From Christensenellaceae bacterium (lineage in GTDB: Bacteria; Bacillota; Clostridia; Christensenellales; Christensenellaceae): a DNA stretch of 33,830 nucleotides. Each line of letters begins with the position of its first letter. The first letter of the stretch is position 1. Positions 5,530-33,487 of this stretch are shown here, one piece after another. Both the position numbers and the translations under genes were made by a program. Below the pieces are notes generated by a model that was not told the DNA's origin, did no database searches, and worked only from the letters and a program-made list of their open reading frames with translations. Location of the stretch: assembly GCA_017523755.1 (NCBI GenBank), contig JAFWWA010000010.1, positions 1 to 33,830 on the forward strand, given 5' to 3'.

Positions 5530-6531
5530 TCAGTTCTCTATAAGGTCATCTCTTATGTAACCCTTAAGTGACTTGCCGTTCTGTACACAGCTGATCTTGT
5601 ACCAGGTGTACTCGCCGTCCTTGGTTCCTTCATCAAGGAGATATAGGTTCGTGCCCTTGGAGAGCTTGCCTACCACGCTGCTGCTTGTCGTAGCGGACGA
5701 ACGCAGGTTGACTCCGTCCTTTGCGACCTTCATTACCTTCGCGGACAGGAAGTCGCCTCTGATATATCCGCTCTTCTCGCTTCCGGACTGTGTGAACGTT
5801 ACAGCATACCATGTGTTGTTCCCGTCGGGCGTGCCGTTATCAGTAACCGTCACTTCTGTACCGATATTAAGACTGGTGACCTTGTTGCTGGTGGCATTTG
5901 CCTCGGACCTTACATTCACTCCGCTGGAGTTGACGTACATCGTGCTTGCGGTCCCTGAAGGAGCCTGCGATCCTTCTCCTCCCTGTGCCGATCCGGAAGG
6001 ACCGGGTGTGGTCTCTTCCTTGAAGCCGTCCACTGAAACATAATCGCACTGGGCAAATCCGTCTTCCGTCGCTTTAAGCACAGCATATACCGTAGTCGTG
6101 CTGCTTTCGATATCGATGCTCACATAATCTTCATTCGAATATGACTCAAGATCGTATCCGGGCCAGAGGGAAAGCAGGAATCCGGCTTTCTGTGTCCCTG
6201 ATGAATCCGTTATCTTGGAGGTCATCCTCTGTGTTGCGGGCAGTCCGTCTATGCTGAGCTTTCCTTCGGAATCAGCAGTTCCGGAGAAGGTCTCCGCTCC
6301 GACGGTCACTGTCAGCTGTCCTCCCGATATCGGAGCATCGCTGCTGTCTTTGAGCATTACAGTAAATGTTACTGTTTTATCATATGGCGTTTTTGTCGGT
6401 GTCGGCTCTGCTGAAACGCTTGCTTCAGGAACATCCTCGCCTTGCTGGCTGTCTTTTGATTTGCCGCAGCCTATCGACATGATGCTGAATATCATGATAA
6501 CTGCGACCAATACAGCTAAAAATTTCTTCAT
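5530..6531 (-). CDS. Lipoprotein with two bacterial SH3 domains
   Basis: 333 residues from the ATG at 6531, which has an AGGAGGACAGA ribosome binding site; a longer in-frame reading to 6600 lacks one. A lipoprotein signal peptide ends at C22 (SIGC), so the protein should be anchored on the outer face of the membrane. An S/P/T linker follows, then an Ig-like or carboxypeptidase-regulatory-like beta domain (about 50-160) and a Gly/Ser linker. Two SH3b domains lie at about 198-262 and 266-332, each with the V-N-V/L-R-S start and W-Y core. SH3b pairs commonly bind cell-wall peptides or polysaccharide. No hydrolase domain is present, so it is probably a wall-binding or sensor lipoprotein. It is monocistronic. 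Confidence 0.85.
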   Translation of the reverse strand: MKKFLAVLVAVIMIFSIMSIGCGKSKDSQQGEDVPEASVSAEPTPTKTPYDKTVTFTVMLKDSSDAPISGGQLTVTVGAETFSGTADSEGKLSIDGLPATQRMTSKITDSSGTQKAGFLLSLWPGYDLESYSNEDYVSIDIESSTTTVYAVLKATEDGFAQCDYVSVDGFKEETTPGPSGSAQGGEGSQAPSGTASTMYVNSSGVNVRSEANATSNKVTSLNIGTEVTVTDNGTPDGNNTWYAVTFTQSGSEKSGYIRGDFLSAKVMKVAKDGVNLRSSATTSSSVVGKLSKGTNLYLLDEGTKDGEYTWYKISCVQNGKSLKGYIRDDLIEN

Positions 6532-6902
6532 TCTGTCCTCCTGTTTGATACAGTACAGTCTAAAATCATACTTATTGTATATCATTTTGTTATTATACAC
6601 AACTTTTTTCGCCTTTGCACACTTAAGTTAACAGAAATGAAAAAAGTATGACACAATATCTATGACTGAAATGCCGCGTATCATCTACCGATTGTATATA
6701 TATTAACATCTATGTGAATATAGTCAAGAAAAATGAAGCATTTGTTAAATACACCGCACAAACAGCCCGCATTTATATTCCCCTGAAAGCACAAAACCGG
6801 CCCAGAGGGCCGGTGCTGTGTCTTTAAGAAGATCATTTCCTCCGGGCTCACGCCCTGAAGGATCTTTAAACTCTGTCTCGCGGTCACAGATCCTGATTGT
6901 TT
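6532..6902. other. Intergenic region between the SH3 lipoprotein and the ECF operon
   Basis: No convincing gene. The left part holds the AT-rich upstream region of the lipoprotein gene, with TATAAT-like boxes on the minus strand near 6590-6600 but no strong -35. The right part holds the trailer and terminator of the ECF operon (6791-6814), plus a small GGGC-GTGA-GCCC hairpin (minus strand) near 6844-6855. Confidence 0.6.
6786..6814 (-). terminator. Intrinsic terminator of the phosphoribosyltransferase-ECF operon
   Basis: ACCGGCCC-AGA-GGGCCGGT forms a perfect 8 bp stem. On the minus strand it is followed by a TTTGTGCTTT tract. It lies about 90 bp after the stop codon of the S-component gene. 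Confidence 0.8.
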
Positions 6903-7481
6903 TTATACGTAAGGAACGATATTGCGGACGTTCTTGAGGAGCGGAGCCAGCCAGAGCACTACGAAAGGAGTGAGGGCGATCGGTACGACGTCAGCGATAC
7001 CTATCATGGATACTGCGAACCAGTAGTCTGTACCGGTGAAGTATGAAAGTGAAAGGCTCGTGGTGACGATCATGAGGATGCCGAATCCTACGCAGAGGAT
7101 CTCGCTCTTGATGATGAATTTGCTCTTTGACTCAGCGATAACATCGAGAAGCTCGAGTTTGCCGTTCTTGAGGTGGATAAGAGCGGGAAGAGCAGCTGAG
7201 AGTCCGACTGTGATACCGTCAGTAAGAGGGGAATGGAGCGGTACGAACATTCCGGCAAGGAGTGCCCATACGATCGTTCCGATATAACCTGCGAAGAATC
7301 CGCTTACAGGCCCGAAGAGGTATCCGATAGCGGGGATTATGAAAGCGAATGTACGGAAGTGCACCTGTCCGGGGATCAGCGGGATAGGTGAAAGATATGC
7401 CCATACAACACCTGTGAGAACACCAAATATTACGAAGAATATGATGTTCACGAATGAGAATTTCTTTTTCTGGTTTTCCAT
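6903..7481 (-). CDS. ECF transporter S component (substrate-binding membrane subunit)
   Basis: 192 residues with about six hydrophobic helices. The segment GVVWAYLSPIPLIPG, the GPVSGF-x-AGYIG helix and the following loop are typical of S components of energy-coupling-factor transporters. These bind one small substrate tightly and hand it over through EcfT and the ATPases. It is the last gene of the operon, 76 bp after EcfT, with an AAAGGA ribosome binding site. The substrate is not readable from sequence. A phosphoribosyltransferase as first gene of the operon, and PurBox-like sites upstream, suggest a purine base or related compound (inferred). It belongs to a dedicated (group I) ECF system, since its own T and A subunits are encoded beside it. 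Confidence 0.87.
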   Translation of the reverse strand: MENQKKKFSFVNIIFFVIFGVLTGVVWAYLSPIPLIPGQVHFRTFAFIIPAIGYLFGPVSGFFAGYIGTIVWALLAGMFVPLHSPLTDGITVGLSAALPALIHLKNGKLELLDVIAESKSKFIIKSEILCVGFGILMIVTTSLSLSYFTGTDYWFAVSMIGIADVVPIALTPFVVLWLAPLLKNVRNIVPYV

Positions 7482-27202: not shown

Positions 27203-29173
27203 ATGCAGTATTTCAGGAATGAAGGCGGTTCCCTCATTTTCAGGAACCACGGCGAGACTCTTATGATCACTCCCTGGGGCAGGGACAGCCTCAGGGTAAG
27301 ATCAGTCATTATGGGGGATATAAGGGATGACAGATTCGCACTGCTGGATCCCGGGGATACGGACTGCAGGATAACAGTATCGGAGTCGGAAGCAGAGATA
27401 GAAAACGGCAGGATAACCGCCAGACTGACCTTGAGCTCATGGAAGAAATACATGAAGATCTCCTTCTATGATCAGAACGGAGAGCTGCTTTTAAGAGAAG
27501 TCGATGACTATAACGCCCTTCAGATAAGAGCCCGGCATTTTGAGCCTGCGACCGGCGGCGACTTCAGGCTCAGGGTCTCGTTCGAAGGCATCGACGGGGA
27601 ACATATATACGGCATGGGCCAGTATCAGGAGGAGATGATCGACTGGAAGGGGGCGGTCCTCGAGCTGGCACACAGGAACAGCCAGGCCAGCGTGCCCTTC
27701 ATGATCTCGAGCCGGGGATACGGGCTGCTCTGGCATAACCCCGCGATAGGAAGAGTCAGCTTCGGCACGAACAGGACCGTATGGGAAGCCGAATCGGCAA
27801 AGCAGATGGATTACTGGATCACTGCAGGAAGCTCCCCTCATGCCATAAGCAGGAATTATGCCGAGGCTACCGGATTCCCACCCATGATGCCGGAATACGG
27901 GCTCGGCTTCTGGCAGTGCAAGCTCAGATACTGGAATCAGGAACAGGTTTTGAGCGTAGCAAGGGAGTACAGGATGCGCGGCCTTAAGATAGACGTGATA
28001 GTGATAGATTTCTTCCACTGGCCGAGGATGGGCGACTACCGCTTCGATCCGGAATTCTTCCCGGATCCCGGGGCCATGGTAAAAGAACTGAAAGAGATGG
28101 GCATAGAGCTCATGGTGAGCGTATGGCCTCAGGTCGCCCTTACGAGCGAGAACTATGAGGAGATGTATCAGGAAGGTCTTCTCGTGCGGGCTGAATACGG
28201 AGAACAGATAGGCATGCGCTTCGTCGAAGACAGCATGTTCCTTGACGCGACAAATCCCCGTGCTAGGAAATACCTCTGGAAAAAGATAAAGAAGAACTAT
28301 TATGACCTTGGGATAAGGATATTCTGGCTGGACGAGGCCGAACCCGAGTACGGTACATATGATTTCAAGAACTATAGATACAGTATCGGGAGCAACCTTC
28401 AGATCGGGAACATCTATCCGCAGATGTTCTCAAGGGCATTCTATGAAGGCATGACGGAGGAAGGCCAGAAGGATCCAGTCAATCTTGTAAGATGCGCGTG
28501 GGCAGGGAGCCAGCGCTACGGAGCTCTCGTATGGTCCGGCGACATAATGTGCAGATGGGAAGACTTCAGGCGTCAGGTATGCGCAGGCCTGAGCATGGGG
28601 ACTGCAGGCATCCCCTGGTGGACTACTGATATCGGCGGATTCCACGACGGATGGACAGAGAACGATGATTTCAGGGAGCTTATAATAAGATGGTTCGAAT
28701 GGGGCTGCTACTGCCCTGTCATGCGCATCCACGGCGACAGGAAGCCTGTGGTAAAAGTCACGAGAAAGGACGGCACGCCCGTGCTTGATTCGGGATCGGA
28801 TAATGAAGTGTGGAGCTTCGGGGAAAAAGCATACGGGATAATGACGTCGTATATGAGGAGACGTGAAGATCTGAGGCCTTACATACGGGAACTGATGGAA
28901 GAGGCGCATGAGAAGGGCCTTCCTCTCATGAGGGCTATGTGGTACTCCTTCCCTTCAGATCCCGCCTGTGCGGAAATAAAGGATCAGTATATGTTCGGAG
29001 ACAGATATCTGGTCGCGCCAGTCATGTATCCGGGGATGAGGAGCAGGGATGTTTATCTTCCGGAGGGAAACTGGAAAAACACCGACACCGGGGAGACAGT
29101 AAAAGGAGGATCGGTGATAAAGGCTGACGCTCCTCTCGAACGCATCCCCGTATTCGAACTTATACAGCGATGA
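27203..29173 (+). CDS. Glycoside hydrolase family 31 (alpha-glucosidase/alpha-xylosidase type)
   Basis: 656 residues, no signal peptide, so probably cytoplasmic. The N-terminal beta-sandwich (about 1-215) has the family GMGQ motif (IYGMGQYQ). The TIM barrel begins at about 230 (P-x-Y-G-L-G-F-W-Q). The nucleophile is D377 in FWLDEAEPE and the acid/base D447 in VWSGDI; further family strings are IDVIVIDFFHW and IPWWTTDIGGF. The C-terminal beta domains follow (YLPEGNW). GH31 enzymes release alpha-linked glucose, xylose or related sugars; WLD-x-x-EPE forms are frequent among alpha-xylosidase-like members, but the sugar is not fixed by this. A GGAGG site lies upstream. It is divergent from the GH27-like gene. 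Confidence 0.93.
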   Translation: MQYFRNEGGSLIFRNHGETLMITPWGRDSLRVRSVIMGDIRDDRFALLDPGDTDCRITVSESEAEIENGRITARLTLSSWKKYMKISFYDQNGELLLREVDDYNALQIRARHFEPATGGDFRLRVSFEGIDGEHIYGMGQYQEEMIDWKGAVLELAHRNSQASVPFMISSRGYGLLWHNPAIGRVSFGTNRTVWEAESAKQMDYWITAGSSPHAISRNYAEATGFPPMMPEYGLGFWQCKLRYWNQEQVLSVAREYRMRGLKIDVIVIDFFHWPRMGDYRFDPEFFPDPGAMVKELKEMGIELMVSVWPQVALTSENYEEMYQEGLLVRAEYGEQIGMRFVEDSMFLDATNPRARKYLWKKIKKNYYDLGIRIFWLDEAEPEYGTYDFKNYRYSIGSNLQIGNIYPQMFSRAFYEGMTEEGQKDPVNLVRCAWAGSQRYGALVWSGDIMCRWEDFRRQVCAGLSMGTAGIPWWTTDIGGFHDGWTENDDFRELIIRWFEWGCYCPVMRIHGDRKPVVKVTRKDGTPVLDSGSDNEVWSFGEKAYGIMTSYMRRREDLRPYIRELMEEAHEKGLPLMRAMWYSFPSDPACAEIKDQYMFGDRYLVAPVMYPGMRSRDVYLPEGNWKNTDTGETVKGGSVIKADAPLERIPVFELIQR

Positions 29174-29302
29174 CCAAAGCCCATAATGCGGAGCTTCAAA
29201 AAAAATAAAAAAACTTTTCAGATTTCTGTGACCTCTGAGCCCGGTTTTCTGTGTATAGGGTTGGAAGGGAAAGAAAAGACCTTCCAGAAGGAGGAAACAG
29301 AA

Positions 29303-30073
29303 ATGAAAAGGAATATGAAAAAGGTACTTGCCCTTATAGCGATAGTGATGATGATGGTTACAGCATTCGGATGCGCTAAGAGCACTGAAAAGAAGGAAGA
29401 TATCGTTGGCGGATGGAAGGAAGCTGAAGACGGTACGATAACAGATGAGTTAAGAGAGATCTTCGACAAGGCTACAGAAACACTGACGGGTGTGAATTAC
29501 GTGCCTAAGAAGCTCATCGCGACACAGCTGGTCGCCGGAATGAACTACAAGTTCCTCTGCGACGCGACGGTCGTCTATCCCGGAGCGAAAGCTCACGAAG
29601 CAGTACTCATAATATATAAGGACCTGAAGGGGAACGCCAGCGTGATCGAGATAATCGATGAGACCATGGAAGAGGAAAATATGCAGATCGCAAATCCGGT
29701 CGTACCGGTCGATTCCATCGAAGACGCGGAAAAAACGACGGGATTCGACATGGAAGCACCCGAGGCCATAGAAGGATATGACGGCAGGAACATATACGTC
29801 ATAAGCGGAAAGACGATACAGATCATCTACGGAGGAGAGGAAACGAACCTCTACGTAAGAAAAGCAAAGGGCAGTGACGATATCTCGGGAGACTACAACG
29901 TATACAGCGATATCCGTGATATCACCGTCGGAGATATCACCGTAAACGCCAGAGGGAACGGGAACGGTTTCATGACAGTGACCTGGGCGAAGGACGGATA
30001 TACCTTTGCCGCGATGGCGAGCGATACGATGACCGAGGAGTTCGTGACCGGGCTCGTTGGCAAGATCGGATAA
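29303..30073 (+). CDS. Lipoprotein with cystatin-like domain and DUF4367 domain
   Basis: 256 residues from the ATG at 29303, set by AAGGAGG 8 nt upstream; a longer in-frame reading lacks a site. A lipoprotein signal ends at C24 (AFGC). Residues about 35-120 match the cystatin/stefin pattern: a Gly pair (G36-G37), a helix DELREIFDKATETL, the first hairpin Q75-L-V-A-G79 followed by M-N-Y (the Q-x-V-x-G motif), then two strands. Cystatins block papain-like cysteine proteases with exactly these parts. About 130-256 is a DUF4367 domain, with DDISGDYN (192-199), also present in the anti-sigma protein two genes downstream. It is first gene of a three-gene operon with a sigma factor. The cystatin call is by eye; activity is inferred. 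Confidence 0.75.
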   Translation: MKRNMKKVLALIAIVMMMVTAFGCAKSTEKKEDIVGGWKEAEDGTITDELREIFDKATETLTGVNYVPKKLIATQLVAGMNYKFLCDATVVYPGAKAHEAVLIIYKDLKGNASVIEIIDETMEEENMQIANPVVPVDSIEDAEKTTGFDMEAPEAIEGYDGRNIYVISGKTIQIIYGGEETNLYVRKAKGSDDISGDYNVYSDIRDITVGDITVNARGNGNGFMTVTWAKDGYTFAAMASDTMTEEFVTGLVGKIG

Positions 30074-30096: not shown

Positions 30097-30666
30097 TTGA
30101 AGAACATGGAAGACAGTGCCATAGTACAGCTTTACTGGGACAGGGACGAGAGCGCTATAACCCGTTCCAATGAAAAATACGGAAGCTATCTGAGGAAGAT
30201 AGCTTTCAGCATACTGTTTAACAGGGATGACAGCGACGAGTGCGTCAACGATACCTATCTTAAGGCCTGGGATTCCATACCCCCGAAAAGACCGGAAAGA
30301 CTCTCCACTTATCTCGGAAAGATATGCCGGAACCTGTCGATCAATCTCTACGAACGCATGACGGCGTCAAAGAGGGGCGGTACCAATACCGACGTGTGTC
30401 TCGACGAGCTGGAAACCGTGCTCGGCACATCGGGAGAGGCTGATGAGCATCTCGATATGGCTCTCCTCACAGAGGCCATAAACGGGTTCCTCTCCTCTCT
30501 CGACAGCGACGTGAGGAACATGTTCGTTCTAAGATACTGGCACATGGAAAGCATCAAAGACATATCAGGAAGGCTCAAGACCGGCGAGAGCAGAGTCAAG
30601 ATGAGCCTCTCACGCGCGAGGGCAAAGCTCAAGGAACATCTTTTGAAGGAGGGATTCGAACTGTGA
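30097..30666 (+). CDS. RNA polymerase sigma factor, ECF (sigma-70 group IV) type
   Basis: 189 residues. Sigma region 2 includes the NRDDSDECVNDTYLKAWDSIP stretch, split as NRDDSDECVND and TYLKAWDSIP, with Y-L-G-K-I-C-R-N-L following. Region 4 carries the helix-turn-helix LSSLDSDVRNMFVLRYW then SIKDISGRL and SRVKMSLSRAR. It directs polymerase to a small regulon, probably including its own operon. The start is TTG 30097, 8 nt after GGAAG; ATG 30106 (MEDSAIVQLYW) is the likely start by family pattern, so this is unsettled. It lies 23 bp after the lipoprotein gene, and its stop overlaps the GTG of the anti-sigma gene (GTGA). Confidence 0.9.
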   Translation: MKNMEDSAIVQLYWDRDESAITRSNEKYGSYLRKIAFSILFNRDDSDECVNDTYLKAWDSIPPKRPERLSTYLGKICRNLSINLYERMTASKRGGTNTDVCLDELETVLGTSGEADEHLDMALLTEAINGFLSSLDSDVRNMFVLRYWHMESIKDISGRLKTGESRVKMSLSRARAKLKEHLLKEGFEL

Positions 30667-31256
30667 GAGCGATAACTTTTTTAAAGGCTATGAACGATAT
30701 AGACGACAGCAATATCGAAGCAGCGGAAAAAGCAGAAGAGAAAAACAGAGTGACCCAGTTTCCCTCATGGCTGAATATAAAGACGGTGACCGCGATAGCG
30801 GCAGCCCTCGTGATAACGGTGACCCTCGGCATCGTGCTTACAAAAAAGGATGACAAGACCATGGCTGTAAATCCCATGGAGCAGGTCATAACGACAGGGG
30901 AAGCGGAAGAGCTGACAGGCTATCCCTTGACCGTTCCGGAAAGCTTCATGGAGAGCCGAAAGACAGAGCTGTTCGTCTATAACGGACAAATGACAGAAGT
31001 AAACTATGTCGACAGGAAGGGCGAGATAGTGCTGACCGTTAGGAAAGCTCCGGGAGATGAGGACATAAGCGGGAACTATAACGAATACGATAAGACGGAC
31101 CGGATAGAGGCCGGAGGCACCGTCTATACTCTAAAGGGCAATAAGGGAATGATAAACCTGGTGCTCTTCACACGGGACGGGTACAGCTACTCTGTTGACT
31201 GTGCTCCGGGGATGACCATAGAGGAAGCGCTCGAACTCGCGCACGAGATACGGTAA
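30663..31256 (+). CDS. Anti-sigma-type single-pass membrane protein with DUF4367 domain
   Basis: 197 residues, GTG start overlapping the sigma stop codon by 4 bp. A short cytoplasmic N-terminus holds the ALNDID-like motif found in this anti-sigma group (here KAMNDIDDSNIEAAEK), expected to bind the sigma factor. One membrane helix lies at about 41-60, followed by an extracytoplasmic DUF4367 domain (about 75-197) with EDISGNYN and a later RDGYSYSVD. The same domain is in the lipoprotein that opens the operon. The protein should hold the sigma factor inactive until a signal outside is sensed (inferred from family and layout). A terminator follows at 31299-31337. Confidence 0.82.
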   Translation: MRAITFLKAMNDIDDSNIEAAEKAEEKNRVTQFPSWLNIKTVTAIAAALVITVTLGIVLTKKDDKTMAVNPMEQVITTGEAEELTGYPLTVPESFMESRKTELFVYNGQMTEVNYVDRKGEIVLTVRKAPGDEDISGNYNEYDKTDRIEAGGTVYTLKGNKGMINLVLFTRDGYSYSVDCAPGMTIEEALELAHEIR

Positions 31257-32452: not shown

Positions 32453-33487
32453 ATGAAAAGATCAGGTACAGGAAGACTAACAGTGATCATGATAACGATG
32501 GTTTTGCTTATTGCCGCCTGTTTTTCTTGCGGATGTTCTTCAGGTACTGAGCTTTCCGATGATGATACTTTCTTTAAAGGGATACATATCCGGCTTCCGA
32601 AAGCTTTAAAAGAAGAATCGGCAGGCGGCAATGAAGCTCAATACAGTTCAAAGAACAGCCGTGTCGTCTTTGCTGTTGAGAACAGTGAAAACTACAGGAA
32701 CGGCTACGATGCGTGGGAGGCGCATATACTCTATTCAAAATCCCTGTACGATAAACCGGGCACAGATATCTCACGCATAAGTATCGGCGGTATAGATGCT
32801 CTTATAGAGAAAAAACACGGGCATATATCCCATGCCGTCATGATCCTGAGATCAAATGCTGTCAGCATCAGTTTTGATTCCGAAGACGAAGAAATGCTTG
32901 AGAGCTTTGATGAAGCTCTCTTATCAGTAAAGATAGACTCAGGTGAGATCCCCGATATTAATAGATTCACATCACCTGAGACCCTGAAGGAAGAAGGTCT
33001 TAAGGAAAAGCCGGCTTATGCGGAAGGCCTGTACATCTATCTTCCGAAAATGTTCAGACCCCTGGAAGTCAACGGTGTCATGAGCTGGGAAGACCCGCCT
33101 CTTTACGCCCGGATACAGATAGTGAAGGTCCCGGACAGAATAACCGGTAAAGATGAGAAATGGTGGATCCAAACTATAAAAGACGATCTGTTTGGAGATA
33201 ATGACTACGGGGCAGTAACAATAAAAACACTTACGATCAACGGTATGGATGCGATCAGAGCAGAATTCGTCACATCAGCCGGTCAGCCAAGCGGCAGAGC
33301 CCGTACATATATCGGTATAGACCTTCCCGGAGGTAAGAATGACTCCGTGCTCCTTAAGTTTACAAAGCTGCTCGACAAAAGCCGGGATATGGATTTCGGG
33401 CATGTTATTAGGACACTGAGATTTGAAGACGGCTGGATCGATGCTGAAGAATTCAAGCCTGAGATGTTCATCAGCGCAGGCGGTTGA
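32453..33487 (+). CDS. Lipoprotein with two copies of a PsbP-like domain
   Basis: 344 residues. GAGAGGGAGA precedes the ATG. A lipoprotein signal peptide ends at C28 (SCGC), after a long hydrophobic stretch. The mature part has two similar halves, about 41-162 and 190-330. Each begins G-x-x-I-x-LPK (GIHIRLPKAL; GLYIYLPKMF), has an x-I-x-G-x-D/M-A-x-x-A/E middle (IGGIDALIEK; INGMDAIRAE) and closes with a short segment before S-V/L-R-F. The pattern resembles the extracytoplasmic domain of the zinc-ribbon protein at 17057-18421, and the PsbP-like/DUF1795 type of fold (by eye). Function unknown; probably binding or sensing at the cell surface. Monocistronic, ends at a terminator. Confidence 0.8.
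   Translation: MKRSGTGRLTVIMITMVLLIAACFSCGCSSGTELSDDDTFFKGIHIRLPKALKEESAGGNEAQYSSKNSRVVFAVENSENYRNGYDAWEAHILYSKSLYDKPGTDISRISIGGIDALIEKKHGHISHAVMILRSNAVSISFDSEDEEMLESFDEALLSVKIDSGEIPDINRFTSPETLKEEGLKEKPAYAEGLYIYLPKMFRPLEVNGVMSWEDPPLYARIQIVKVPDRITGKDEKWWIQTIKDDLFGDNDYGAVTIKTLTINGMDAIRAEFVTSAGQPSGRARTYIGIDLPGGKNDSVLLKFTKLLDKSRDMDFGHVIRTLRFEDGWIDAEEFKPEMFISAGG

Follow-up and report, generated by a model that had tools for sequence, protein, structure and literature searches.

The periplasmic regulators RseB and MucB, which act in the sigma-E and AlgU systems, modulate an ECF anti-sigma factor, and their C-terminal domain binds the anti-sigma ectodomain. In the sigma-V/RsiV system of Clostridioides difficile, a membrane anti-sigma factor binds lysozyme, regulated proteolysis destroys the anti-sigma factor, and the regulon that is then expressed gives resistance; RsiV itself also blunts low lysozyme levels (PMC9044953). 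Bacterial stefins, including those of Clostridia, were reported in 2009 with a proposed defensive role (Kordis and Turk, PMC2784779). The part of that report available to us makes no mention of a regulatory link for these proteins, and literature searches returned no work on the regulation of bacterial cystatins.

The window analyzed here, a 33,830-nucleotide stretch of contig JAFWWA010000010.1 from a Christensenellaceae bacterium, holds a gene that joins the two themes: its product fuses a divergent stefin/cystatin domain to a DUF4367-like domain, and it stands directly before an ECF sigma factor and its anti-sigma factor. What is new is this link between a stefin and an ECF sigma factor, and that it recurs; the stefin domain itself is not, because clostridial stefins already appear in the 2009 report. 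Compared with the bacterial stefins described there (MEROPS I25, PMC2784779), the window protein has the same cystatin fold, trunk glycine, and QxVxG motif, but its family is exported, often carries two to four repeats per protein, and is not recognized by PF00031. Two further differences are its fusion to DUF4367 and its tie to an ECF sigma factor.

The gene encodes 256 residues (exact open reading frame bounds 29303-30073, + strand, as for every feature of this operon and its promoter given below). An alternative in-frame ATG upstream at 29186 would lengthen the protein, but the start at 29303 is preferred because a ribosome-binding site, AAGGAGG, can be read at 29288-29294. A signal peptide (29303-29374), recognized by eye, leads to the lipobox-like AFG-C24. 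The earlier note, which was made from the sequence alone, had called the product a lipoprotein with a lipobox cysteine. The hydrophobic stretch and AFG-C24 fit a permissive lipoprotein pattern, whereas the strict lipobox pattern is unmatched, and Phe at -2 is unusual; we regard the product as secreted and probably lipid-anchored. The 5' neighbor on the same strand is a large open reading frame (27203-29173), separated from the gene by about 130 bases. Elsewhere in the window, at 32453-33487, is a 344-residue open reading frame for an exported, lipoprotein-like protein without a match in Pfam or NCBIfam.

Residues 30-124 (about 30-125; 29390-29674) contain the elements of a cystatin in the expected order and spacing: G36-G37-W38, with the trunk glycines at 29408-29413, a helix, and Q75-L-V-A-G79-M-N-Y, in which Q75 to G79 (29525-29539) would form the first binding hairpin. 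Searching the single sequence against the whole PDB with phmmer placed three cystatins on top, all in the same register, at E values of 0.07-0.55. A profile of the seven copies of the domain in the same genome (alignment A1) retrieved cystatins and stefins only, and a 26-sequence profile reached cystatin A2 at E 2.9e-4 among 27 matches that were mostly cystatins; chorismate mutase AroH, which also appeared among the profile matches, is regarded as a chance match. Profile-profile comparison with human stefins A and B and cystatin C gave a probability of 91.5% over the part from the glycine through the helix to QVVAGTNY, which counts as supporting evidence only. AlphaFold2, run on alignment A2, returned a strand followed by a helix and four strands, the cystatin fold, at a pLDDT of 91.9. 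VIA-align matched this model to CsStefin-1 (Z 10.1), potato multicystatin (9.6), and papain-bound stefin B (1stf, 9.0), and the best Foldseek match was sialostatin L2 (E 6.5e-4). The motifs are also conserved: among 169 domains of the family the first glycine is kept in 147, the glutamine, valine, and glycine of QLVAG in 142, 133, and 157, respectively, and N in 143. Given the phmmer ranking, the 26-sequence profile, and the predicted fold, the resemblance to cystatins exceeds chance, and the domain is a divergent stefin/cystatin. The reading of a glycine pair, a helix, and QLVAGMNY as stefin-like, offered in the earlier note from the letters alone, is thus borne out in sequence match, fold, and conservation. 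Pfam and NCBIfam leave the N-terminal domain unnamed. A search with PF00031 found nothing in the same genome, nothing above cut-off in 99 genomes, and nothing among the seven A1 domains; since the gathering score is not reached, we label it a divergent domain of the cystatin-like superfamily, outside PF00031.

Two more exported proteins of the same genome account for six further stefin copies. The first, at 5589-7223 of locus L087 (G000:C48), has four repeats, interrupted by a long linker rich in Pro and Thr; the second, at 15641-16375 of L087, has two repeats and, by eye, a TATAAT-type promoter. Across the class, stefin matches occur in 12 of 391 genomes, and within one genus, which we take to be Saccharofermentans, in 58 of 85, so that stefins of this type appear common in that genus; the genomes are a sampled set with many metagenome assemblies. 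Farther afield, a distant two-domain relative annotated as hypothetical lies on plasmid pAT1 of Aureibacter tunicatorum (Bacteroidota; L039, 3923-4528), and a partial relative (L040, 2073-2219) lies on a contig of 5.9 kb that comes from human faeces and is labelled "Bacteriophage sp." (unverified), though it may be bacterial DNA; these two matches offered no further context.

Residues 126-256 (29678-30070) are 31% identical across 127 amino acids to the DUF4367 ectodomain of the anti-sigma factor encoded downstream, and on this identity they are a paralogue of it. The earlier note's description of a stefin "joined to DUF4367" is therefore right in substance, although Pfam is silent there: PF14285 calls the anti-sigma factor alone (24.9 bits, cut-off 22.1). 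That profile is too insensitive for DUF4367 in Saccharofermentans (0 of 85 genomes), and our own alignment, A4, was used instead. The domain is scarce, with 44 places in 391 genomes. Related sequences form small lipoproteins by themselves (L198, L201, and L208), anti-sigma ectodomains, and the C-terminal part of secreted proteins that lead other sigma operons. Three such leaders of ECF operons (L204, 4838-5851; L205, 4929-5837; L242, 683-1606) share the DUF4367 of their anti-sigma factor as C-terminus. The L204 and L205 operons, which carry a TGCAAC-N16-TTGT promoter, resemble the window's operon in having a secreted leader ending in DUF4367, a sigma factor, and a DUF4367 anti-sigma factor, and differ from it in that the N-terminal domain of the leader is, according to Pfam, copper-amine-oxidase-N-like rather than a stefin. 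Judged by domain order, these loci form a modular operon family: an X-DUF4367 leader, a sigma factor, and a DUF4367 anti-sigma factor.

The AlphaFold2 model of the DUF4367 domain (pLDDT 92.5) has as its best structural neighbors the C-terminal domains of RseB (Z 7.4) and MucB (6.7), both below 8 and thus under the reliable range, and Foldseek gave nothing significant (E 0.16 or worse). The resemblance is suggestive at most. It is one of modeled structure rather than of sequence, and RseB has a LolA-like N-terminal domain where the window protein has a stefin. A literature search on the term DUF4367 found no paper.

Directly 3' of the lipoprotein gene, which heads the operon as the earlier note had said, are the sigma factor at 30097-30666 (possible start ATG 30106) and the anti-sigma factor at 30663-31256, the start of the second gene overlapping the stop of the first. 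The former matches Sigma70_r2 (33.1 bits), Sigma70_r4_2 (32.6), and TIGR02937 (64.2); it has only sigma-70 regions 2 and 4, both above cut-off, which makes it an ECF factor. The latter crosses the membrane once, by a stretch near residues 41-60 where hydropathy reaches 2.4 (residue 41), and carries the DUF4367 ectodomain. Outside the window, the order of stefin, ECF sigma factor, and anti-sigma factor is found at two of about 90 stefin loci. At L071, the three genes overlap by 4 bases, and the sigma factor is 42% identical to that of the window. L072 has the same operon order with a different ECF lineage, its sigma factor being 24% identical to the window's and its anti-sigma ectodomain of the same DUF4367 kind; 3' of this operon, and possibly part of the same unit, is a gene for a 1256-residue BspA-type leucine-rich-repeat surface protein (L072, 5630-9400). 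A tree of 163 stefin domains, which are too short for the purpose, did not settle whether the three operon stefins have a single origin. The earlier note had called the combination unusual. The operon order is seen at 3 of about 90 loci in all, and the combination is no one-off, as it recurs in gene order, promoter, and co-occurrence in genomes.

A comparison among relatives bears on why the two domains are joined. A stefin leads the sigma operon in genomes G489 and G447, and in G861, G816, G856, and G832 the first gene of the operon encodes a DUF4367 lipoprotein that contains no stefin; three of these last (G861, G816, and G856) have stand-alone stefins with the same promoter as the sigma operon. 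The window has the two domains in a single protein at the head of the operon. Where genes kept apart but regulated together in one species are found joined in another, their products usually cooperate, and by this reasoning the stefin and DUF4367 likely do so.

The promoters extend the association beyond gene order. A putative ECF promoter, TGTGAC-N16-CTGTGT, lies at 29227-29254, 76 bases before the start codon, and is the sole match in the window (0.07 expected); the pattern recurs at -74 in the sister operon L071. Resting on two operons, the motif is weak alone. TGTGAC-N16-CYGT has five matches in the same genome versus three for a reversed control and so is not enriched, for which reason no regulon is claimed for the window's sigma factor; the ECF motif is also absent from the genome's two other stefin genes. 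The stronger evidence concerns the sigma lineage of L072 and comes from a different family. There the L072 promoter, TGCAAC-N16-TTGT, is shared with non-stefin operons of its sigma lineage, and a weight matrix trained on ten such non-stefin operons only found TGCAAC-N16-YTGTAT 5' of 27 of 86 stefin genes versus 7 of 647 controls (Fisher 4e-21). The stefin genes so identified are mostly stand-alone, with sites 46-86 bases before the start. Of the 85 genomes of the genus, 60 have the L072-type sigma lineage. Stefins with the promoter are seen in 23 of the 40 stefin genomes that have a strong sigma match but in 0 of the 18 that do not (Fisher 1.8e-5), a value that overstates the evidence, since members of a single genus are related and do not count as independent. 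At the sigma loci themselves, the motif is present in 26 of 30, followed by a membrane protein gene, and the first base of the -10 element is the same in the stefin and sigma promoters of 14 of 15 within-genome pairs. Strong TGCAAC-N16-TTGTAT-like sites also precede some non-stefin genes (L161, 1-980; L165, 5047-5622; L075, 4941-5534), which may be members of the regulon.

We propose, with a probability of about 0.6, that the window protein is made on induction, tethered to the membrane, and inhibits papain-type proteases from outside the cell, as part of a sigma/anti-sigma feedback module. The inhibition is predicted, and we infer likewise its target, the inducer, and the direction of the feedback. 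The N-terminal stefin would inhibit papain-type (C1A) cysteine proteases arriving from ciliates, the host, plant feed, or rivals by inserting its trunk glycines and QLVAG hairpin into their active-site cleft. The anti-sigma factor in the membrane would be inactivated by damage to the envelope or by the protease that attacks it, and the freed sigma factor would transcribe its own operon, with the inhibitor gene first. The DUF4367 domain of the lipoprotein would probably bind the ligand or partner of the anti-sigma ectodomain and so tune or shut off the response. As proposed, the system would resemble sigma-V/RsiV as an ECF system that senses an attacking enzyme and raises resistance, and would differ from it in that the inhibitor is a separate lipoprotein with a cystatin fold and that the anti-sigma ectodomain is DUF4367.

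Alternatively, the cystatin fold could serve to bind or adhere to glycan, peptidoglycan, or protein without inhibiting proteases, with the operon acting as a general envelope-stress unit. The second hairpin is KDLKGN (family consensus EDLxGN), without the Pro-Trp of type-2 cystatins or the Leu-Pro of stefins, which weakens the inhibitor claim, even if neither pair is universal across the superfamily. Non-inhibitory proteins with this fold exist, monellin and CRES being among the matches of our model, and the analogous leaders of other DUF4367 operons carry a copper-amine-oxidase-N-like domain in place of the stefin. However, the trunk glycine and QxVxG, which are the protease-contacting elements in stefins, are among the most conserved columns in the 169 domains, and a mere scaffold needs neither. 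We therefore consider a binding module rather unlikely.

If the stefin does inhibit a protease, the enzyme could instead belong to the same cell: a cysteine protease that cleaves the anti-sigma factor or other surface proteins, held in check as negative feedback. The earlier note had likewise suggested control of a protease acting on the anti-sigma protein. The adjacency and common direction of the stefin, sigma, and anti-sigma genes, and the sharing of the anti-sigma ectodomain by the lipoprotein, speak for such a circuit, but nothing supports it directly, and there is no protease to propose for it. Signal peptidases are not known as targets of stefins. In one clostridial ECF system, sigma-V, the site-1 protease is likely such an enzyme (PMC9044953). 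Moreover, a search for the C1 family (Peptidase_C1) found none in the genome, a provisional result since the assembly is 69% complete. By contrast, C1A peptidases are enriched in the rumen ciliate Entodinium, which expresses cathepsins B and F (PMC6925433). Protection from external proteases, the other role named in the earlier note, thus fits better because no papain-family peptidase of the cell's own was found in the 69% complete genome and ciliate C1A cathepsins are abundant, and control of an own protease seems improbable. Rumen ciliates are a plausible source of the targets; that the window organism lives in the rumen is suggested by its relatives only.

Finally, a chance meeting of a common secreted stefin with a common sigma/anti-sigma pair, which the stand-alone position of most stefin genes and the mere 3 of about 90 loci with operon order might suggest, is very improbable and was rejected on the fusion to the anti-sigma factor's own domain, the recurrence of the gene order with a second sigma lineage, the promoter association, and the co-occurrence in genomes. 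On this evidence, the link between stefin and sigma factor is not accidental.

An inducible inhibitor of exogenous proteases could be part of something broader. Tentatively, and with less confidence than for the inhibitor itself, one may imagine a dedicated anti-protease stress response, in which DUF4367 sensors would detect attack by proteases or predators and switch on surface stefins, and the shared DUF4367 would close the loop. The ECF switch and its promoter sequence provide a handle, as an inducer of the switch should reveal the purpose of the stefins, and the joining in the window protein of parts that are separate in related genomes hints at the use made of the DUF4367 sensor domain. 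If such a stress response exists, rumen Clostridia would run an inducible defence against the cathepsins of protozoa, host, or plants.
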